IMG/VR virus record: IMGVR_UViG_3300024518_002752
Span: 1-49,218 of that record
Origin: a virus
DNA: 49,218 nucleotides
Strand: one strand, 5' to 3'
Shown here: in pieces, positions 130 through 45,272 of the stretch
How positions within the stretch are numbered: the first letter of the stretch is position 1
Layout: the number at the start of each line of letters is the position of its first letter
The notes under the pieces: generated by a model
Told to the model about the DNA's origin: nothing
The model's input: the letters and a program-made list of their open reading frames with translations, nothing else
The model's database searches: none
Program-made: the position numbers and the translations under genes

Positions 130-1194
130 CATCTCCGTCACGACGCGCCCGTACTCCTCGACCTCTCTGCGTGGCTTCCACATGGTGTCGATGAAGGAGA
201 ACTCGGGGACCATGATGAGGCCGTTGTGCTCCAGCGAGCGGTGGTCTATCTTCCAGATTTCTATGCCGAAGCTCCACCAAAGAAAGGGCGTCAATCCGTC
301 AGCCCGCTCAGGCGTAGCGGTGAGGCCGAACCGCAGCTGCGCAGGGATGGCGGTGAGCACAAAAGAAAAGGTCTGTGCTGGCGCATGATGGGCTTCGTCC
401 AGGATGACAACGCCGAACTGCTTGGCCCAATCGTATAGCTCTGTCCAGCGCATCTTGGTGAGAGTCTGCACCGTGGCTATCACCACGTCGCCGGCTTCCT
501 TCTTGCCCATGCCGTACACGCCAACGCTCGCGCCGGGAAGCCACTGCGCCAGCCTGCTCTTCCACTGCAGCACGAGGTCTCCAGTGTGAGCGAGGATGAG
601 AGTCTTGCGCTTGGCCGCGCCAATGATCCCCACGCCTATCGCCGTCTTGCCTGCACCGCAGGGAGCGCGGAGCACGCCGTGTCCATGCCTCATAGCTGCG
701 TCGATGCCATCCTGCTGGTAGCCACGGGGCGCGAAGCTGTCGGCCAAGCCTACGTCGATGGGGCTACCCTTCTGCCTTCGGTCCACGATGTCGAGCCAGA
801 AGCGATTCGTTTTGCAGAAGAGAGGAAGGATGATGCCGTCTCCCCAGGGATGGTCGAGGGGAAGACGATGGGCTGCGTACAGCCACTGGTCGGGCATCGG
901 AACACGCTTGCCTTTCTTGCGCAGGTTGTTGGCGGTAACCCAATCGGGGTTAACGATGCGGAACTCTTTTGCTATCTCAATCGCGTCCTCACTGTCAGGC
1001 TTGAAGTAAATCCCTCCGGCCTTGACGCACATCACATGCTTCATGCGGTCCTCCATGTATCGGTTAGATGCCATCACCCGCATCCAAAGCGGGCAGTCGT
1101 TGATGTAAAGCTGGTGCCACCTGTCGAGGGAGGAGTCGTAGTACCCGATGTACTTACGCGACTTCCCCATGAACCTTATGCCAAGGGTGCTCAC
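1..1194 (-). CDS. SF2 DNA helicase, N-terminal 398 residues (continues at the right end)
   Basis: This is the first part of a DEAH-type superfamily 2 helicase. Translation from the GTG at 1194 gives 398 codons with no stop before the window edge. Walker A APCGAGKT is at residues 177-184, motif II DEAH at 266-269 and motif III-like LTATP at 291-295. About 150 residues before the ATPase core are unrecognised. The GTG overlaps the TGA of the upstream primase-helicase gene (GTGA), so the two are translationally coupled. The gene finishes at 48748 through the end repeat, giving a protein of about 511 residues. Phage helicases of this class usually act in replication or recombination; the exact role here is inferred. 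Confidence 0.93.
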   Translation of the reverse strand, partial: MSTLGIRFMGKSRKYIGYYDSSLDRWHQLYINDCPLWMRVMASNRYMEDRMKHVMCVKAGGIYFKPDSEDAIEIAKEFRIVNPDWVTANNLRKKGKRVPMPDQWLYAAHRLPLDHPWGDGIILPLFCKTNRFWLDIVDRRQKGSPIDVGLADSFAPRGYQQDGIDAAMRHGHGVLRAPCGAGKTAIGVGIIGAAKRKTLILAHTGDLVLQWKSRLAQWLPGASVGVYGMGKKEAGDVVIATVQTLTKMRWTELYDWAKQFGVVILDEAHHAPAQTFSFVLTAIPAQLRFGLTATPERADGLTPFLWWSFGIEIWKIDHRSLEHNGLIMVPEFSFIDTMWKPRREVEEYGRVVTEMTLDKDRNETIVDIATRCAAEGRSILILSDRVGHCEVLAEELIE

Positions 1195-3266
1195 TCCCCC
1201 GTCTCTTCAAAGCCAACGGCAGCGCGAGCCCATACTCTTCTGCGGCGACCCTCCACGTACTCCCGGCGCTGCTCGAACCCTAGCCTGCGCAGCGTCTCGG
1301 CCACTCTCATCTGCTTGCCCTTGTCCATCTGATAGGGCTGAAGCTCGAGCCCCTCGGCCATCACTCGCTCGATGGTGAACTGGTCCTGTCCGATCGCTGA
1401 GGTCCACTTGGAGATCAACTCCTCCCACGCGTCGTTAACCTGAAAGGGTTGGTGTACATCGCGAAGCGCCTGCTCCTCTGCAGCGGTGAGGTGCCACCTT
1501 TCCCCCTTAGCGAAGGCATCGTAGGCCTCTGCCCACAGCATTCCCCTGAACTCGGTGAGCCACTTGCGGTCCACCCAATCTGTGCGCACCGGCCAGAACC
1601 TGCGCGAGCCTGTACTGTCGGTGAGGAATCCCTCCTCGTTGGTCGAGGCAGCGAACACAACGTGGCGCGGAACCACCTCAGCCTTTGTCTTGTAGGGCTC
1701 GCGGTAGGTGTCGGAGCTGGCGGTGAGGAAGGCTTTGATCTGGCTGTGCGCCCGGCCACGAAAGGAGTCGAGCTCGGCTATCTCGTATATCCAAGCCTTG
1801 CGTATCTGTTGGAAAGCATCCTTGCTGAAGTCGAGCGGGGTGTCAGAGAAGTACTCGTCGCCTGCCAAAACTCTGAGCCCTGTGCTCTTGCCTGCCCCCT
1901 GGGGGCCCACAAGGACGAGCGTCGCGTCGGCTTGGCATCCCGGCCTCATGCATCGAGCGACTGCCTGGATGAGCCACTTGCGCCCCAGTATCCTCGTGAT
2001 GGCTGTGTCGTCCGACGAGAAGCCCTTCACCAGCCACTCGTCCACTCGCTTCTCTCCGTCCCATACCAGTCCTCCCAACCACTCCTGCAGAGGGTTGCGC
2101 ACCCGCTCTGCCGCGTGCATCTCCACAGTTTGCCGGACCACGTTCGTGGCCCAGACCTTTCCGTAAACCCTGTCGAGCCAAACGGCAAGCTTGGTATCTT
2201 CCACGTCAGTCCATCGAACGGCGGCGTCGAGCATCACGTCGCCGTTGAATCCGTTCTTCCAGATGCGATCGTTCCACCGCGTGTCGTGCTCAAGGACGTA
2301 GGCGAGGTTGCTGGGGGTAGCCTTGGGTCTGCCGGTTGGCATCCCTCTTACGGTGTCCTGCTCAACGATGGTGAGCACCGCCTCCTCTGGTCCCCCTTCC
2401 TCTCTGCCGCCGGGTAGCTGGGTAGCGTTGGCGAAAGGAAAGAACTGGGTGAACGGACTGCGAGCGTGGCCGTGGCTCTTGGACATGCAGCATAGGAGCA
2501 CGCCGTCTTTGCATCGACGCAGGAACGCGGACCCCAGAGACGAGCCCTCTTTGAACGGGCACGCCCCCTTGATCTTGTCGCCTCTCTTGTGCTTGAGCCC
2601 CCACTCTTTTATCTGAAGGTGCTCCCCTTCCATGTTGATGAACTCGTGGTCCTCTTCCTGCTCGGGAGCTATCTCTTGTTTGCCCCCACGCAAGATAAGG
2701 TCCACGTCAACGGGAGGCTCGTCGCCTTCGTAGTAGCCGCTCCAGTGGTAGTTGTCCCTGAACTCGGGAGCAGGCGCAGGCAAGTACCACATGCGGGCAG
2801 CGTCTTTGCACGCGGGGTCTGGGATGAGACCAGCGTCTTCGCTGTAGCGCATCGCCCACTTGATGAGGGTCTTGAACTCGCGCACGGTGACGGGCCGAGA
2901 GAGGCAGACTACCGCTCGCGTCCTGTCCTCCCCCGGCTTGTTTGACCATGTGGTGTGCGTAACCATGAGGTAGTTTCCCCACACCGCCTCAACGTCCTCG
3001 ACAGCTGCGCCCTCATCGAAGTCCAGGCACAGGCAGTAGATCTTATCGACGTTCTCGTTGGAGCGTACCGTCCCCTTCTTGAGGGTGAGGGGTGACCACA
3101 GTGGCAGCTGCGCCTTGTCGGAGTAGTTGATTCCTTTCGCGGCCACCTTGTCGAGCCACTTGAGTTCGATGTAGCCCTCGACGAACTCGTCCCAACTCAT
3201 CTCACGGACGGCCCATGGCAGGTTCTTGTAGAGGTTCTTATAGAGGGTTATTTTTATTGGGGTCAC
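1191..3266 (-). CDS. Primase-helicase: AEP-like N-terminus plus VapE/D5-type ATPase
   Basis: The protein is 691 aa from a GTG start at 3266, chosen because GGAGAC lies eight bases upstream and rusA ends 17 bases before; no ATG fits. Residues 79-86 (LCLDFDEG) give a D-x-D pair typical of archaeo-eukaryotic primase folds, and residues about 236-267 carry several Cys and His that may bind zinc. The C-terminal half is a VapE-family (PF05272-like) P-loop ATPase: Walker A GPQGAGKST at 454-462, acidic IYEIAELD at 493-500, FAASTNE at 538-544 and TGSRRFWPV at 552-560. It probably primes and unwinds phage DNA for a host polymerase, since no polymerase gene is visible. The ATPase call is firm; the primase call is by motif only. 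Confidence 0.88.
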   Translation of the reverse strand: MTPIKITLYKNLYKNLPWAVREMSWDEFVEGYIELKWLDKVAAKGINYSDKAQLPLWSPLTLKKGTVRSNENVDKIYCLCLDFDEGAAVEDVEAVWGNYLMVTHTTWSNKPGEDRTRAVVCLSRPVTVREFKTLIKWAMRYSEDAGLIPDPACKDAARMWYLPAPAPEFRDNYHWSGYYEGDEPPVDVDLILRGGKQEIAPEQEEDHEFINMEGEHLQIKEWGLKHKRGDKIKGACPFKEGSSLGSAFLRRCKDGVLLCCMSKSHGHARSPFTQFFPFANATQLPGGREEGGPEEAVLTIVEQDTVRGMPTGRPKATPSNLAYVLEHDTRWNDRIWKNGFNGDVMLDAAVRWTDVEDTKLAVWLDRVYGKVWATNVVRQTVEMHAAERVRNPLQEWLGGLVWDGEKRVDEWLVKGFSSDDTAITRILGRKWLIQAVARCMRPGCQADATLVLVGPQGAGKSTGLRVLAGDEYFSDTPLDFSKDAFQQIRKAWIYEIAELDSFRGRAHSQIKAFLTASSDTYREPYKTKAEVVPRHVVFAASTNEEGFLTDSTGSRRFWPVRTDWVDRKWLTEFRGMLWAEAYDAFAKGERWHLTAAEEQALRDVHQPFQVNDAWEELISKWTSAIGQDQFTIERVMAEGLELQPYQMDKGKQMRVAETLRRLGFEQRREYVEGRRRRVWARAAVGFEETGE

Positions 3267-3283
3267 GGGGGTCTCCAGGTTGG

Positions 3284-3709
3284 TTAGGTTAGGGGGGAAA
3301 GGGTAATCTCCACGGACGGTCCCTCCTGCATGGAGGAGTAGAACTTCGAGGCTGAGATGCGAACGACGCACGAGTCGTCCCTCAAGACGCCTGCCATCGT
3401 GAGACAATCCATCGCTGACTTAACTATGTTGTCTAGGTCAGGCTTGGAGGTGCATGGTAGTCTTAACGGGCTATCACGTTTTCGGCATAACCTCTTGGGC
3501 CGGTGCATGACTGCGACCACGTCGATCGAACACGGCTCGTCGAGGGGCGCGTCCTTCCAGCAGGACCGAGCGAGCATCGCAGCTGCGCGTTCCCACTCGG
3601 CGCTCCCTTTGGGTGAGTACATCTTGATGTGCCCTCCCCGAAGAGTAGCTCGCGGCCTGCCCTTTCCTACGGGAGGTCCAGGGATGACGCACTCAAACGT
3701 CCAGCCCAT
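3284..3709 (-). CDS. rusA: RusA-family Holliday junction resolvase
   Basis: A 141-aa protein, the usual length for RusA. The catalytic signature KPDLDNIVKSAMD lies at residues 89-101, with D91 and D93, followed by DD at 111-112 and K97. These match the Asp triad and Lys of the family. RusA dimers cut four-way DNA junctions symmetrically; in phages this resolves branched replication and recombination intermediates before packaging. The start overlaps the end of the XRE regulator gene by 17 bases. It is followed by the primase-helicase, so regulator, resolvase, primase and helicase form one leftward replication operon. Confidence 0.93.
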   Translation of the reverse strand: MGWTFECVIPGPPVGKGRPRATLRGGHIKMYSPKGSAEWERAAAMLARSCWKDAPLDEPCSIDVVAVMHRPKRLCRKRDSPLRLPCTSKPDLDNIVKSAMDCLTMAGVLRDDSCVVRISASKFYSSMQEGPSVEITLSPLT

Positions 3710-3905
3710 GCACCACCTCCATCACCACCTTGGCATCCCAGCCAAAGAGCCCGACGAGTTTAGAGAACTGGGTTAAGTTCGGGATGCGCTGCTGGTTCTC
3801 CCACATCGAAACCGATGCGCGATTGCTGTCCACCCGCTCACCTAACTCCTCCTGGGTCATTCTGTTTCGCTTGCGTGATAGCATGATGTAGTCTGCCAAT
3901 GTCAT
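3693..3905 (-). CDS. XRE/Cro-type HTH transcriptional regulator
   Basis: A 70-aa protein that is almost entirely a helix-turn-helix domain of the XRE family (about residues 5-58, including MTQEELGERV and the recognition-helix stretch NRASVSMWE). AAGGAGG sits directly upstream of the ATG. It is the first gene of the leftward replication operon and faces the rightward recombination operon across a 156-base divergent promoter region, which is where Cro/CI-like proteins normally bind. With no integrase in the window, a control switch between early transcripts is more likely than classical lysogeny. The operator is suggested below. Confidence 0.85.
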   Translation of the reverse strand: MTLADYIMLSRKRNRMTQEELGERVDSNRASVSMWENQQRIPNLTQFSKLVGLFGWDAKVVMEVVHGLDV

Positions 3906-4009: not shown

Positions 4010-4061
4010 CTCGGCCTAGAGATTGGCAGAGATTGAAACCTAAACCAAACCAGGAAAGAAA

Positions 4062-38248: not shown

Positions 38249-39046
38249 CTAATCCCGTGACTCACACACAATAACATACCCGCCAATCTGACGATGGCCA
38301 ACGCGCCTGGGAAAGACGCCTCCGTGAGCAGCCTTCCTAAACAATGGAGACCCCATAATACGCTTCAAGTCACGACGCCCAAGCATTAAAGGATTACCAG
38401 CCAATGCCATCTGCAATCTAAGGCGCTCCAACAACGTCTCGTTCATACCAAGCGTAGGAGCAAACACGCCGAAGTCTAGATTCATTAGCCACAGCTGAAC
38501 ACAAGGCTCCGTCAACATTCGCTCCACAGCCCTTACCATGTGGTGGACAACAGCCTGCTCACCAACCCCAACCGTCTCCTTGATCTCCTGAATAGATAAT
38601 CCACAGGCATAAGAAACCAAAGTCGCCACGTCATGCCCATACCACCACTCGTCGCCTAAACGACAGCCTGACTGGATGGCGTTAGCCACCTCCCAAGGCG
38701 TAGGAACGTTAATGCCCCAAGCCTCCTCGACCTCATCGGGCCAGCTGCGCGGTGCTCGAAACGAACGAGAAGAACTCAGCCAGTCGCCAATAGCTGTCGT
38801 TGACTTTAACCAATCCAAAAACTCCTCGTCGCGATGCTCCCGTGGGCCGCTATACCACCACAAACGCTCGCAGCGCAGATGCTCAGATGCACATAGCAAA
38901 CTCACACGGTTGAAAAGACGACGCGAAATCAACCGACCGTCACCAGGATCATGCGAAACAATATGAACAAGCAAGTCAGCTCGACGCTCACGCTTGCGCG
39001 CACGCCCCGCTAATGAACCTAAGCAGCCGCCTGTTCTAAACTCCAT
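38249..39046 (-). CDS. Hypothetical DNA-binding-like protein, first late gene
   Basis: A 265-aa protein rich in Arg and Trp. Residues about 148-175 (SYACGLSIQEIKETVGVGEQ and following helix) look like a helix-turn-helix of the sigma-4 or small-terminase kind. It is the first gene of the late operon, directly before the putative small terminase and terL. It could be the true DNA-recognising packaging subunit or a late regulator. The start at 39046 has only ACGAGG very close upstream. Confidence 0.6.
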   Translation of the reverse strand: MEFRTGGCLGSLAGRARKRERRADLLVHIVSHDPGDGRLISRRLFNRVSLLCASEHLRCERLWWYSGPREHRDEEFLDWLKSTTAIGDWLSSSRSFRAPRSWPDEVEEAWGINVPTPWEVANAIQSGCRLGDEWWYGHDVATLVSYACGLSIQEIKETVGVGEQAVVHHMVRAVERMLTEPCVQLWLMNLDFGVFAPTLGMNETLLERLRLQMALAGNPLMLGRRDLKRIMGSPLFRKAAHGGVFPRRVGHRQIGGYVIVCESRD

Positions 39047-39486
39047 CCTCGTACACTAGCATGTGTAACGAAATCGTGAAATGAAACACCGGAAATTTGG
39101 TAAAGGGTTCGAGGGGGGCACCAATAATATATAGAGACCGTGCCGAAAGGGGGGAAGCACTTTGCCGCAGGCTCGAGCTCTGGGAGAGCCAAGGCCTGGA
39201 GTAGTGTCTATGCTGCCACGGTTCTAACAACGTATTGAGCGGAAGGACAAGGTCCTTCTTCGCGAAGAAGAACAGAGGGTGAAGCATGAACGCCTTATAG
39301 ATCTGCACGATATAGGGTGAACACCTTTAGGTGTGAACGCCTTACTGTGGTCGGAGAGAGCGAACGAAGTGAGCGAGCTCCCGTTGTGGATCCAACGATA
39401 GTGGATCCAACGATAGTGGATCCAACGATAACGGATCCAACGATAACGGATCCGACGTGGTGATCGGATCCGTCTCGGTTTCATGT
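39047..39486. other. Intergenic region upstream of the late operon, dense in symmetric elements
   Basis: This 440-base stretch has no convincing gene. It holds TACAC-ATGCTA-GTGTA just before the late start, an AT-rich TATATATTAT block (minus strand, 39123-39132) as the only -10-like sequence, the perfect palindrome CTTCTTCGCGAAGAAG at 39255-39270, AAGGAC-AAG-GTCCTT at 39243-39257, two copies of TGAACGCCTTA (39287, 39334), ACACCT-TT-AGGTGT at 39321-39334 and the 15-bp repeat array. Location beside the terminase genes makes a late-promoter/packaging-site role plausible. Confidence 0.55.
39386..39472. repeat. 15-bp tandem repeat array centred on GGATCC
   Basis: Three identical units GTGGATCCAACGATA (39386-39430), a fourth beginning AC (39431-39445), a degenerate fifth (39446-39460) and a final CGGATCCG (39465-39472). 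GGATCC recurs at 39388, 39403, 39418, 39433, 39448 and 39466. Each unit contains a 6-bp palindrome, so the array gives symmetric sites on one to two turns of the helix. It could be iteron-like, a packaging recognition site or an operator. It also encodes pentapeptide repeats in two minus-strand frames, but these lack a ribosome site. Confidence 0.85.
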
Positions 39487-40869: not shown

Positions 40870-40942
40870 CTTCTGATCTCCATGTGGTTTGGTTTGGTTA
40901 CAGGATGGAACTCCCATCTGCATATACTCTTTAGCCGGTCCT

Positions 40943-40993: not shown

Positions 40994-41005
40994 TTGACGT
41001 GTCAA
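40994..41005. promoter_or_regulatory. TTGACRYGTCAA-type site, imperfect copy
   Basis: TTGACGTGTCAA, one of three related 12-bp dyads (others perfect: 41163-41174 TTGACATGTCAA and 41300-41311 TTGACGCGTCAA). This copy lies directly upstream of the leftward promoter, and its minus-strand left half is itself a TTGACA box. Probably a protein-binding operator. Confidence 0.5.
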
Positions 41006-41162: not shown

Positions 41163-41319
41163 TTGACATGTCAAGGGCCAGGTCCGGGCTGAGATAATAT
41201 ATACTAAAATAGTATATGATATTTATACTAAAACAGGATTCAAACTTATACTAAAATAGTATACGTTCATTATACTAAAATAGTATATGTGAAAAACTCT
41301 TGACGCGTCAAGGGCCAGG
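41163..41319. repeat. Two 20-bp direct repeats carrying perfect palindromes, flanking the AT-rich array
   Basis: TTGACATGTCAAGGGCCAGG at 41163-41182 and TTGACGCGTCAAGGGCCAGG at 41300-41319 differ only at the two centre bases. Each starts with a perfect 12-bp palindrome. They lie 137 bp apart on either side of the phased TATACTAAAATAGTATA copies, giving a symmetric block that resembles a replication origin or a major operator region. Confidence 0.85.
41200..41287. repeat. Phased array of TATACTAAAATAGTATA dyads
   Basis: The 17-bp sequence occurs identically at 41200-41216, 41247-41263 and 41271-41287, with a half-copy (TATACTAAAACAGG) at 41224. Starts are 24, 23 and 24 bp apart, so the sites recur about every 2.25 helix turns. 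Each is an inverted repeat TATACTA-AAA-TAGTATA. The whole stretch is very AT-rich, as expected for a DNA-unwinding element or array of operators. Confidence 0.85.
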
Positions 41320-41382
41320 CTCAGGTGATGGATGAGCTCTGCCCTGTGGGCCTGGACACGTCAAGACTTGAAGGTTTGACAA

Positions 41383-41406: not shown

Positions 41407-41541
41407 GCCTAGCCATAAGCAGGTGCAGATCAGTAGGTAATGACCGGCGAATGCGTAGGTATTTTTCTAGGACCGGCCTCAAAAGTTTGATGTCCCAAAA
41501 GGTCGGGCAAGGAAAGGGCAGGGGGGAGGGGAGCTTTGGGG

Positions 41542-41653
41542 ATGGGACAACCGGGACATCTAAAAGCCCTACTCTTTCTATATACTGTAATTCTAATTTC
41601 TCCTAATTTACCCTTACTCTTTGTTACTGTTTTAGATGTCCCGGTTGTCCCAT
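41542..41653. repeat. Perfect 24-bp inverted repeat with 64-nt loop
   Basis: Arms 41542-41565 and 41630-41653 are exact reverse complements over 24 bases (starting ATGGGACAACCGGGAC). The 64-base loop is AT-rich with pyrimidine runs on the plus strand and repeats TACTCTTT near each end. A run of G (GGGGGGAGGGG) lies just before the left arm, and a third partial copy, GATGTCCC, sits at 41489-41496. No ORF crosses it convincingly. A cruciform-forming origin element or stable non-coding RNA is possible. Confidence 0.9.
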
Positions 41654-41762: not shown

Positions 41763-41792
41763 TTGACACACGGATCGGAACCGTAGTACAAT
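41763..41792 (+). promoter_or_regulatory. Strong sigma70-like promoter of the rightward early operon
   Basis: TTGACA (41763-41768), 18-base spacer, TACAAT (41787-41792). Perfect -35 and five of six in the -10. Transcription from about 41799 would begin just before the structured leader and drive the 41954-48577 operon. Confidence 0.75.
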
Positions 41793-41802
41793 AAAAGTGG
41801 GA

Positions 41803-41930
41803 GGTTGGTGAGTACATGACCTTGTTGCGGTAGAGGATCTGGTTTAGCGGCCACCCTCGCTCAACGGCCCGGAGTTGATCATCCGGGGTGACCGAAGCAA
41901 GGCCATGTACTGACGAGCCCCCACCAAACC
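41803..41930 (+). ncRNA. Structured 5' leader, candidate riboswitch or attenuator
   Basis: The leader folds into a closed multibranch shape: GGTTGGTG (41803-41810) with CACC-A-AACC (41922-41930), then a 14-bp stem 41811-41824 with 41898-41911 (one mismatch, A41819 opposite C41903), and inside it CCCGGA (41868-41873) with TCCGGG (41882-41887). The outer stem consumes the AACCAAAC motif just before the GGAG of the first gene, so folding could control access. I considered a tRNA-like fold but the arms do not fit. No known riboswitch recognised. Confidence 0.6.
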
Positions 41931-41953
41931 AAACCACCACATGGAGCAACGAC

Positions 41954-42610
41954 ATGAACGACTCAACCCTCATCACAATCTCGTGGGACACCACCACCGA
42001 GACTAATACCGTAGCTGCGCTTCGCGAGAAGTTTGCCAAGACCAATCTGTTCGACGACGGAGTGTGGTCAACGATGTCCACTTGGTCAACGTCACTAGAA
42101 AACTTGGCGCAAGTGTTAGAGCATATGCAGCCCGGTGAGGAGTGGACGTGCGACAACTGCACCGTCTCACTGGCAGAGGAAACCCAGCGCGACCCACTGG
42201 CTGACCCGCTCATTGAACTCATTGAAGAGGTACAGAGCGAGTCCTTCCAGTGGAACGAGGACGGCACCCTCAACAAGTACCCCGACGAGCAGATGGAGGA
42301 AAGCCTCACTCACCGCATCATTGTCAAGACAGGCGACACCTTCTACATCTGCGTACCCTCCGACTGGCTGGAGCTTGACTGGCGCGAGCACTACGACACA
42401 TGGTCTGACACCGCGCAGGCTCGCAAAGAGATTGCCGAACTCAGGGACGACAACATCCTGTGGGATCTCAGTCCGGGTTGCTTCGCCATCGACGCGAACA
42501 CCGGCATCGAAGACCTGTTCGGAACCGTCAACCATCTGTACACCATGGTTGACGAAGGCTTCCTCACGGCCCGCGCTGCGATGCTCGCCATCACGGGAGG
42601 TGCAGCATGA
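41954..42610 (+). CDS. Strongly acidic protein, first gene of rightward early operon
   Basis: A 218-aa protein; ATG at 41954 with GGAG at 41943. By my count 42 Asp/Glu against about 12 Lys/Arg, a net charge near -30, many of them in clusters (for example the Glu-rich stretch about 75-100). Such proteins at the head of early phage operons can be DNA mimics that block restriction or host DNA-binding proteins. C67-x2-C70 (CDNC) may bind metal. No family recognised; DNA mimicry is a guess from charge and place. Confidence 0.7.
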   Translation: MNDSTLITISWDTTTETNTVAALREKFAKTNLFDDGVWSTMSTWSTSLENLAQVLEHMQPGEEWTCDNCTVSLAEETQRDPLADPLIELIEEVQSESFQWNEDGTLNKYPDEQMEESLTHRIIVKTGDTFYICVPSDWLELDWREHYDTWSDTAQARKEIAELRDDNILWDLSPGCFAIDANTGIEDLFGTVNHLYTMVDEGFLTARAAMLAITGGAA

Positions 42611-42843
42611 ACGTCGTCATCGACATCGAACTCAAGCGCAACACAGGGTGCGGCGGCGGCGACGAGTACTACGGTCTCACCGTGGCAGGCCACGTCTGCA
42701 TGAAGCACGGGCCAGACGTGACCATCGACTACGTTGTGGAGGAGGGGACCGACAACGTCTTCGACCTCACTGTGACTGAAGATCAAGTGATGCTCGACGC
42801 TATCTACTCAGCCTTTCTAGCAGGGGAGGGCGACCGTGAGTAA
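42607..42843 (+). CDS. Hypothetical small acidic protein
   Basis: A 78-aa protein coupled by ATGA to the preceding acidic gene and overlapping the methyltransferase start by eight bases. It is acidic with a CGGGDEYYG patch near residue 15 and mixed beta-like pattern. Coupling to two neighbours supports reality; function unknown. Confidence 0.68.
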   Translation: MNVVIDIELKRNTGCGGGDEYYGLTVAGHVCMKHGPDVTIDYVVEEGTDNVFDLTVTEDQVMLDAIYSAFLAGEGDRE

Positions 42844-44176
42844 CATCATCTCTTTGTTCAGTGGTGTTGGTGGTTTGGACATCGGCGTGGAAGCGGCGAC
42901 AGGTCTTCGGGTTGGCCTTCAGGTGGAGGCCGACCCCTTCTGCCGCAGCGTGCTGGCCAAGCATTGGCCTGACGCGGAGCTTCACGATGACGTGCGAACC
43001 ATCGACTGGACAGGACGCAAGGCGGACCTGCTCATCGGTGGGTTCCCGTGTCAGGACGTGTCGCTTGCCAACCCAAGCCCCAACGGACTGGAAGGCAATC
43101 GCAGTGGCCTGTGGTTTGAGATGCTCAGGGCCATCGAAGAGGTCAGCCCCACCTACGTCTTCATCGAGAACGTTGTCGGGCTGCGCAAGCGCGGACTGTT
43201 GACTGTCCTCAAGGGACTGCGAGCAGCAGGCTATGACGCCGTCTGGTCACCGCTGTCGGCCAAGCAGGTGGGAGCACCGCATGTGCGTAACCGCATGTGG
43301 ATACTGGCTGCGAAGTCAGGTTGCTTCCAGAGTTTCGACGGACGCGCCCCCTTCGGAGGCACCCCATGTTCAGCATGGCTTCGGGGTAATGGGAGGGTTG
43401 AACCTTGGGAACGTGGAACCCGACGCACCACCGAGGCTGGAAACCCAACGCGCAAGCCACGCCTCAAGGCGCTGGGCAATGCCGTCGTTCCTGAGTGTGC
43501 GCGTCAAGCGTTCATCGGCCTCAACGATCACCTATTGCAACTTCCACCAACGAGCGTGGTGCGAGCGGCGGGCTACGATAGTCTTGAAGACCTCGTCGAG
43601 GTTCCCATGTCTGGCTTCATGTCCGGCGTGTTCACAGGCAAGGCCTCTCGCCTTGGTCCCAAGTCCAAGAAGCAGACGCCGATGTTCCCGACGCCATCAG
43701 CCAGCAGCTACGGCAGCAACCGAGGCGGAGCTGCGGGGCGCGTCGGTCCTGTCCGTCACTCACTCAACTCGATGGCGACCAGCGGCGACTGGCCTACGCC
43801 ACGAGCGAGGGACTACAAAGACTCAGGTAGCCTGCCACCATCACGCATCAACGATGCAGGTAAGGACACGCTGGGCCAGAGGGTCGCTCGCGCTGACCTG
43901 ATGTACCCTACGCCGACCGACCCGACGAAGGGAGGAGGAACGAGCAGGAGCGGTGCGCGTAAGAACGAGTGCCCGTCGCTGCATGGTATGGCGCGACACG
44001 GTGTCTGGCCTACGCCAACCGTCAAGGGAAACTACAACAAGGCAGGCCTCACGCAGAAGAGCGGCGATGGTCTGGCTACAGCAGTGCTCAAGGCAAAAGA
44101 CTGCGGGCCCCTCAACCCATCGTGGGTCGAGTTGCTCATGGGCTTTGACCTCGGACACACGGAGGTGCAATCATGA
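42836..44176 (+). CDS. C5-cytosine DNA methyltransferase with displaced recognition module
   Basis: A 446-aa protein from GTG at 42836 with GGGGAGGG upstream. Motif I LFSGVGGLD (7-15), motif IV GGFPCQDVS (68-76) with catalytic C72, motif VI ENV (111-113), motif VIII RNRMWIL (151-157) and motif X GNAVVP (214-219) are clear. Only about 55 residues separate VIII and X, where the target-recognition domain normally sits. The expected type of TRD material instead follows motif X: (F/W/Y)PTP at 284-287, 319-322, 357-360 and 391-394 and GPLNPSWVELLMGF at 424-437. It probably marks phage DNA against host restriction; no restriction partner is nearby. The order change is unusual for the family. Confidence 0.9.
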   Translation: MSNIISLFSGVGGLDIGVEAATGLRVGLQVEADPFCRSVLAKHWPDAELHDDVRTIDWTGRKADLLIGGFPCQDVSLANPSPNGLEGNRSGLWFEMLRAIEEVSPTYVFIENVVGLRKRGLLTVLKGLRAAGYDAVWSPLSAKQVGAPHVRNRMWILAAKSGCFQSFDGRAPFGGTPCSAWLRGNGRVEPWERGTRRTTEAGNPTRKPRLKALGNAVVPECARQAFIGLNDHLLQLPPTSVVRAAGYDSLEDLVEVPMSGFMSGVFTGKASRLGPKSKKQTPMFPTPSASSYGSNRGGAAGRVGPVRHSLNSMATSGDWPTPRARDYKDSGSLPPSRINDAGKDTLGQRVARADLMYPTPTDPTKGGGTSRSGARKNECPSLHGMARHGVWPTPTVKGNYNKAGLTQKSGDGLATAVLKAKDCGPLNPSWVELLMGFDLGHTEVQS

Positions 44177-44460
44177 GAGGACAACTTACATTCATTCTGG
44201 CCAAGTCAAAGAGGTGGCTGCACTTCTGCGACGAGCTTCAGTTCGCAGGCGAGTCAACGTTGGCAGGCGGTGGCCGCGTCAAGTTCAAGGAAGGGGTCAT
44301 GCATGACCTCTGGTTTCCTGTGCATGGTGAACTGTTTCAATGCGTCGAGGACATCTTGAGGCAGAACGGAGTAGCCCACAACGTGGTGTCCATGGGCAAG
44401 ACCGCCATCGCTGATACATGGGAGGTCACCTACAACTGTCGCCAGCGAGGGGCAGCATGA
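44173..44460 (+). CDS. Hypothetical early protein
   Basis: A 95-aa protein, coupled by ATGA to the methyltransferase before and to the XF1762-family gene after. It has a hydrophobic beta-like start (RGQLTFILAKSKRWLHFCDEL) and a CVEDILRQNG helix. No domain recognised. Confidence 0.68.
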   Translation: MRGQLTFILAKSKRWLHFCDELQFAGESTLAGGGRVKFKEGVMHDLWFPVHGELFQCVEDILRQNGVAHNVVSMGKTAIADTWEVTYNCRQRGAA

Positions 44461-45272
44461 TCTGTCCATGCTGCGAGACAGACCTCGCCTTCGACTCGCC
44501 TGCGTACATGGCGCTGGACGTAGCTGTGCGGGAGCAGGAGGCGTTCGTCTCCTACCTCCCGTGCTGCGCGTGGCTCGCGGAGCAAGTCTCCTCAGAGGGC
44601 TACGCCAGCGTCATGGGTAGGACCATCGAGCAAGTGGTGACTGACCTCACCGGCTACGAAGTGCTTGAGGTCACCGACATCGACGGCGTGATGGTCTGCC
44701 GCCTAGAGATCTACAGCCCCACTGTCGTGACGGGTCAGCCCGATGAGCACGGCAGGCGCAAGGGCAAGTCGCCCAAGGGAACGCAGTCGTGGATGTTCGC
44801 CAAGGTCGATGAGCACCACCGTCATCACCCGGCTCCGACAGGATGGAAGTACGGGGTAGCTATCTACAACGGGCCAGTGATGGTGGGTGTTGCCATCGTC
44901 GGCAGGCCAGTGGCTCGTGCTCTTCAGGCAGCGCAGCCCAACACGCTTGAGGTCACTCGCGTCTGCACCTTCGGGGTTTCGCAGCTTCGGCAGAACGCAA
45001 GCAGCAAGCTCTACTCAGCGTGCGCCGTGCAGGCCAGAGCCATGGGCTACCGCAGGCTGGTGACCTACACGCTGCACGAAGTAGAGAGCGGGGCGAGTCT
45101 GGTCGCCTCGGGATGGACGGCTACGTTCACCACTCCCAACGGGCGCAAGCGCTCATGGAACTGCAAGACCAGACCACGAGAAGACAAGGCTCCGACAGGA
45201 CCGAAGGTCAGGTGGGAGAAGGGACTGAACAAGACCGAGCGCAAGCGGGTCGCGGCGCAGGTGCAGGGGTGA
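44457..45272 (+). CDS. XF1762-family protein (GNAT-like) with N-terminal Cys motif
   Basis: A 271-aa protein from ATG 44457. The block VMVGVAIVGRPVARALQAAQ, then LEVTRVCTFG, N-ASSKLYSACAVQARAMGYRRLVTYTLHEVESGASLVASGW (about 141-220) is the signature of the XF1762 family found in phages and mobile elements, whose helix-strand order resembles an acetyltransferase fold. The N-terminus has MICPCC and a later CC (36-37), a possible zinc site. The C-terminus is very basic. No substrate known. Confidence 0.82.
   Translation: MICPCCETDLAFDSPAYMALDVAVREQEAFVSYLPCCAWLAEQVSSEGYASVMGRTIEQVVTDLTGYEVLEVTDIDGVMVCRLEIYSPTVVTGQPDEHGRRKGKSPKGTQSWMFAKVDEHHRHHPAPTGWKYGVAIYNGPVMVGVAIVGRPVARALQAAQPNTLEVTRVCTFGVSQLRQNASSKLYSACAVQARAMGYRRLVTYTLHEVESGASLVASGWTATFTTPNGRKRSWNCKTRPREDKAPTGPKVRWEKGLNKTERKRVAAQVQG

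Follow-up and report, generated by a model that had tools for sequence, protein, structure and literature searches.

Tandem 17-bp Dyads and a Neighboring Iteron Element in a VapE-Encoding Phage: A Putative Operator Beside a Candidate Replication Origin

Introduction

The OR sites of phage lambda are 17 bp long and are separated by gaps of 6 and 7 bp (PMC6544977). The iterons of RepA_N systems are semi-palindromic direct repeats, the inverted halves of which converge on a poly-A tract (PMC7145576). The Rep helicases of SaPIs and Cch2 have been reported to bind iteron origins via their C-terminal domain, and SaPI origins are located directly downstream of rep (PMC7581432). Operators and origins can look alike by eye. 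Here, candidates for the two are told apart in a phage group without a close relative in the collection of phages searched. The DNA analyzed (the window) is an IMG/VR record of 49,218 bases, in which a sequence-only reading had pointed to a repeat block at 41163–41319. The region around this block probably bears a replication origin along with control functions, and the block itself is more likely the operator part than the origin.

Genome Organization

The first and last 129 bases of the window are identical (99%), and a helicase gene that is cut off by its right end resumes at its left end. These facts indicate that the window is a near-complete phage genome, either circular or terminally redundant. 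Terminase, portal, and tail genes are read leftward from around 40.9 kb, and early-type genes, which encode a methyltransferase, a Mom-like protein, and SSB, are read rightward from around 41.9 kb. The block had been placed between divergent early operons, but only its rightward side is of the early type. The replication cluster (XRE, RusA, VapE primase-helicase, and helicase) is read leftward across the record ends. Two of its genes are of particular relevance here:

1191–3407, minus strand: VapE-type primase-helicase with a winged-helix-like C-terminal segment, the proposed initiator for 41491–41653
3693–3905, minus strand: XRE (HTH_3) protein of 70 aa, a candidate binder of the 17-bp dyads

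At the nucleotide level, searching the phage collection returned no match, and the terminase has only distant matches there (23–34% identity). The terminase family was not found in bacterial genome contigs. Back-translated patterns of the VapE protein retrieved no relatives, and the GP88 relatives obtained are distant ones. Rfam and tRNA searches found nothing, and neither a CI-type repressor nor a tyrosine integrase was found.

Several features lie outside the intergenic region. The first gene of the early operon (41955–42610) encodes a strikingly acidic protein with no family match, which might mimic DNA. The same operon includes, near its start, a DNA methyltransferase followed by a Mom-like DNA modification protein (42836–45272). 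A 15-bp tandem repeat, GTGGATCCAACGATA, is seen at 39371–39460 between the 265-aa ORF and the GP88 gene. Perfect copies of AACCAAACCA are present at 4043–4052 (plus strand), 40885–40899 (minus strand), and 41927–41936 (plus strand), and only just upstream of the likely ribosome-binding sites of operon-starting genes; behind them are the exonuclease region, a 106-aa ORF, and a 240-aa ORF. With at most one mismatch, this sequence has 17 matches versus 2.1 expected, and it is perhaps a shared 5' leader element.

Tandem Dyads at 41163–41319

The sequence TATACTAAAATAGTATA is present in three perfect copies and one degraded copy at 41200–41287, framed by TTGACNNGTCAAGGGCCAGG on both sides:

40994–41005, plus strand: third perfect TTGACNNGTCAA palindrome, outside the block
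41163–41182, plus strand: left framing repeat TTGACATGTCAAGGGCCAGG, whose first 12 bp are palindromic (class 2 dyad)
41200–41216, plus strand: 17-bp dyad 1, perfect, TATACTA-AAA-TAGTATA
41224–41240, plus strand: dyad 2, degraded, TATACTAAAACAGGATT, with 3 mismatches and an intact left half
41247–41263, plus strand: 17-bp dyad 3, perfect
41271–41287, plus strand: 17-bp dyad 4, perfect, overlapping the -10-like hexamer of the promoter-like site at 41282–41311
41282–41311, minus strand: leftward sigma-70-like promoter TTGACG-18-TATACT, a 10/12 consensus match, within dyads of both classes
41300–41319, plus strand: right framing repeat TTGACGCGTCAAGGGCCAGG, whose palindrome gives the -35-like hexamer of that same leftward site
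41763–41792, plus strand: rightward sigma-70-like promoter TTGACA-18-TACAAT of the early operon, an 11/12 consensus match

With up to three mismatches, TATACTAAAATAGTATA has 7 matches versus 0.02 expected, and none of 100 shuffles reaches 7. No further site of this type is seen elsewhere in the genome, even if its center is left free. The repeats are thus real, and their coordinates and sequences had been given correctly. The two framing repeats are identical at 18 of 20 positions, and their core, TTGACNNGTCAA, is a perfect palindrome in its own right. All three of its perfect copies (0.02 expected) are in this gap, and a near copy is seen at 41353. The dyads are spaced by 24, 23, and 24 bp, which leaves gaps of 7, 6, and 7 bp. 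The description of the dyads as phased holds for this regular spacing but not for the helix face: at 10.5 bp per turn, their centers are at about 0, 103, 171, and 274 degrees. The AT-rich setting is confirmed, and the most AT-rich 60-mer of the genome (start at 41194, 50/60) is inside the dyad stretch.

In the leftward promoter-like site, the -35 hexamer belongs to the TTGAC palindrome class and the -10 hexamer to the 17-bp dyad class. Promoter-like sites of this strength number 5 in the stretch versus 1.7 expected, and such a match alone does not prove a promoter. The size and spacing of the dyads resemble those of lambda OR, they overlap a leftward promoter-like site, and analogous dyads are found in a relative (L035, see below). 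For these three reasons we lean, with modest confidence, toward reading 41163–41319 as a complex operator within the phage's central control region, with the origin at the neighboring 41491–41653. The tandem 17-bp dyads would be bound by a small phage regulator in dimeric form, for which the 70-aa XRE protein is the strongest candidate. The TTGACNNGTCAA palindromes might be bound by a second regulator, or by the same regulator in another mode. The bound regulators would cover TTGACG-18-TATACT and control the leftward operon. We infer all of this binding and repression from the nucleotide sequence.

The XRE protein matches HTH_3 (E 9e-9). Its gene is about 11.6 kb from the dyads on the circular map, and its promoter region contains no TATACTA dyad. 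No recognized HTH is encoded by the genes adjoining the dyads. The XRE protein of a relative, G002, is 48% identical, yet 14-bp direct repeats instead of dyads are seen in the homologous gap there. The 265-aa protein (38249–39046) shows a weak match to sigma-70 region 4, is resembled only by two unnamed viral models, and has no solved-structure match. It is also kept in most terminase relatives, with or without dyads, and is therefore a weak candidate for the dyad binder.

The main rival to the operator reading is that the 17-bp dyads are palindromic iterons. An initiator of the RepA_N-like or another type would bind them as dimers and open the adjacent AT-rich DNA, and 41491–41653 would be a second part of the origin. 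The dyad block consists of semi-palindromic direct repeats converging on an A-tract, the form described for RepA_N iterons (PMC7145576), and the regular spacing of 23–24 bp suits iterons. The dyads also occupy the most AT-rich stretch of the genome, less than 200 bp from the other candidate origin. Against this, PF06970 (RepA_N) has no match in the genome up to E 10, a search that a diverged initiator would escape. Together with the evidence from relatives given below, this leaves the initiator reading as rather unlikely.

Each 17-bp dyad can also be folded as a 7-bp stem with a 3-nt loop, and such tandem palindromes could have another structural role, either as a centromere-like partition site or as hairpin promoters read from single-stranded DNA. 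The single-stranded folding of the block is only modestly better than that of shuffles (z -1.9), partition proteins were not recognized among the genes scanned, and no virion RNA polymerase was recognized among the proteins scanned. We regard a structural role as very improbable.

An Iteron Element at 41491–41653

The sequence-only reading offered an iteron origin or a complex operator for the block. The operator alternative fits the dyads better, and the element that matches the candidate origins of relatives, 41491–41653, lies outside the block, about 200 bases away from it:

41491–41496, minus strand: TGTCCC, possibly half of an outer left iteron, spaced like the outer iterons of relatives
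41544–41561, plus strand: left inner iteron pair GGGACAACC GGGACATCT with a 9-bp period, in the arm 41542–41565
41566–41629, no strand: AT-rich core between the iteron arms, 64 bp, 67% AT, the proposed unwinding element
41634–41651, minus strand: right inner iteron pair, inverted, in the arm 41630–41653

The arms form a 24-bp perfect inverted repeat flanking the 64-bp core, and each is made of tandem 9-bp units, GGGACAACC GGGACATCT. Across the whole window, scanning revealed no second inverted pair of such strength at such spacing. The core corresponds to the third most AT-rich 60-mer of the genome (41575, 45/60); the dyad stretch is more AT-rich than this core. Relatives and other VapE phages share the plan of this element, and the window itself encodes a VapE helicase. 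Based on these facts, 41491–41653 appears to be the best origin candidate of the region. The GC-skew analysis that had been suggested as a check gives a minimum at 39056. This minimum tracks gene orientation, and therefore GC skew is no guide to the origin here.

The VapE protein of the window matches PF05272 (E 8e-70) and is related to PDB 7pds, annotated as "similar to D. nodosus vapE" (E 1.7e-37). In a four-sequence structure model that is poor as a whole (pLDDT 49), the best-predicted part is the C-terminal segment, residues 660–730 (pLDDT about 75–83), where helices and a beta hairpin follow one another in a winged-helix-like order. In our preferred reading, the VapE-type helicase would bind the inverted GGGACAACC pairs via its C-terminal domain, melt the 64-bp AT-rich core, and load itself. 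Iteron binding, melting, and replication at this site are what we infer from the layout of the DNA.

The Homologous Gap in Terminase Relatives

A terminase profile gave 52 loci, including nine already obtained with a single protein. In about nine relatives (L212, L213, L216, L218, L222, L225, L226, L229, and L230), iterons with a TTACA core are found in the homologous gap, and most of the same plan is present in L223. In this plan, the AT-rich core is bracketed by two inner inverted pairs of opposite orientation, and each pair has an outer group beyond it: (<<)(>>)core(<<)(>>). A D5_N/DUF5906 primase-helicase is the large gene beside the gap in the relatives checked (L212 and L225). L035 has GGCCTAACC units in the same plan, and L237 has GTAGAC repeats along with a D5_N/DUF5906-type protein. 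The gap of G002 contains its 14-bp direct repeats, not the iteron plan, and several terminase loci have nothing recognizable in the gap. Judged from these gaps, the iteron plan is common within the group but not universal. The roughly ten relatives with TTACA iterons manage without dyads of the 17-bp type in the gap, which argues against the dyads as initiator iterons.

The terminase of L035 is 75% identical to that of the window. At the same position of its gap, L035 has dyads, GTATCANNNNTGATAC and TGACANNNTGTCA, which are unrelated in sequence to those of the window and are also placed on leftward promoter-like hexamers. Since the counts at 3 mismatches are weak (5 versus 2.5 expected, and 29 versus 33), it is their clustering and perfect copies that support the L035 dyads. 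A search of IMG/VR with the 17-mer of the window, another check that had been proposed, gave 27 single matches, none with a second copy, and thus no family signal.

The window and L035 share the order of their elements, at similar distances: dyads of classes 1 and 2, a GC-rich stretch, and iterons around the AT core. This conserved order would suit a combined function, in which a repressor bound to the dyads would additionally prevent or permit initiation at the neighboring iterons, for instance through its control of transcription close to the origin; the block would then be both an operator and the regulatory part of the origin. However, the promoter-like site in the dyads faces away from the core, so that its transcript would not cross the core, and the arrangement is seen in two phages only. 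Such a combined function seems improbable. A bolder proposal, which we consider unlikely though less so than the combined function, is that dyads and iterons make up a compound origin. A palindromic-iteron module, served by an unrecognized initiator or regulator, would be joined to a module for the self-loading VapE helicase, and the recognition sequences of both modules would be exchanged between one phage and the next without a change in geometry.

Other repeats are seen in the gaps of these phages. The array of the relative G002 in the homologous gap has a 14-bp period (GTCGCGTATCCAAA and CGCGTATTGGTTGT; L250:15190–15300). Dyads of 15–21 bp are present in distant relatives (L237:1886–1931, L240:5586–5635, and L236:2498–2981), as pairs at 26–28-bp spacing or at both ends of the gap.

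Iterons Behind VapE in Other Phages

L090 is related to the window only via a 34%-identical VapE segment. Its GGGACA iterons follow the plan described above and are located behind vapE, at a distance of a few hundred bases. Beside this iteron element, tandem copies of CGCGTATGTTCAATAT are seen (L090:13985–14045). L090 was the single match of the last viral scan, the spacing window of which left out the spacing of the present phage, and it therefore tells little about the frequency of the plan. In Marinobacter phage PS3 and Paenibacillus phage Bob, iterons with a 9- to 11-bp period, including inverted groups, are found in the gap directly behind vapE. The repeats directly behind vapE are weaker in Streptococcus phage Javan100, and Pseudomonas phage Haddon has no gap there. 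The clear initiator-type protein of the present phage is VapE, whose relatives adjoin short iterons with a period of about 9 bp. This again speaks against a separate initiator on the dyads, and an operator remains our preferred reading of them.

By itself, GGGACAACCGGGACA is found in at least 120 stretches of viral contigs, which is near chance by a rough estimate. Further copies nearby number 99, versus 19 for the reversed pattern, and only this excess indicates that part of them are real iterons. In most of the clustered records no VapE was seen, many of these records being fragments, and several encode an AAA_25 helicase-primase; GGGACAACCGGGACA was thus rejected as a VapE-specific iteron. 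Clustered GGGACA iterons are also seen in GC-rich phages (L104:4654–4850, L106:6539–6700, and L147:187–340), and several phages with GGGACA clusters have a helicase-primase of the AAA_25/Toprim family in place of VapE. Similar iterons may accompany different helicases.

Discussion

The comparison suggests a rule for origins that is independent of the iteron sequence itself: inverted pairs of iterons with a period of about 9 bp around an AT-rich core, in phages with VapE/D5 primase-helicases. The rule predicts origins in PS3 and Bob and, more weakly, in Javan100.

The dyad block resembles lambda OR/OL, the sites of CI and Cro, in having tandem 17-bp dyads with 6–7-bp gaps (PMC6544977); lambda OR/OL overlap a promoter between divergent units, and the dyads here overlap a promoter-like site between divergent units. 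Unlike OR/OL, its dyads are AT-rich and perfectly identical, and a second class of palindromes is interleaved with them. The candidate XRE gene is not adjacent, and the CI-type repressor and the tyrosine integrase are missing from the genes recognized. The block is also similar to the iterons of RepA_N plasmids and PLEs, where direct repeats that are themselves inverted repeats converge on an A-tract (PMC7145576), although no RepA_N protein was detected in this genome. With its short iterons, AT-rich core, and VapE-type helicase, 41491–41653 resembles the origins of self-loading initiators of the D5/VapE type, such as SaPI Rep and Cch2 of SCCmec. Unlike in SaPIs, the origin candidate is not directly downstream of the helicase gene: on the circular map, about 8.6 kb separate it from vapE. 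The mirrored arrangement with a 9-bp period is a pattern of this phage group, different from the SaPI Rep and Cch2 origins. The operator candidate would thus be grouped with the operators of the tandem-dyad kind, and the origin candidate with the iteron origins at which helicases load themselves.
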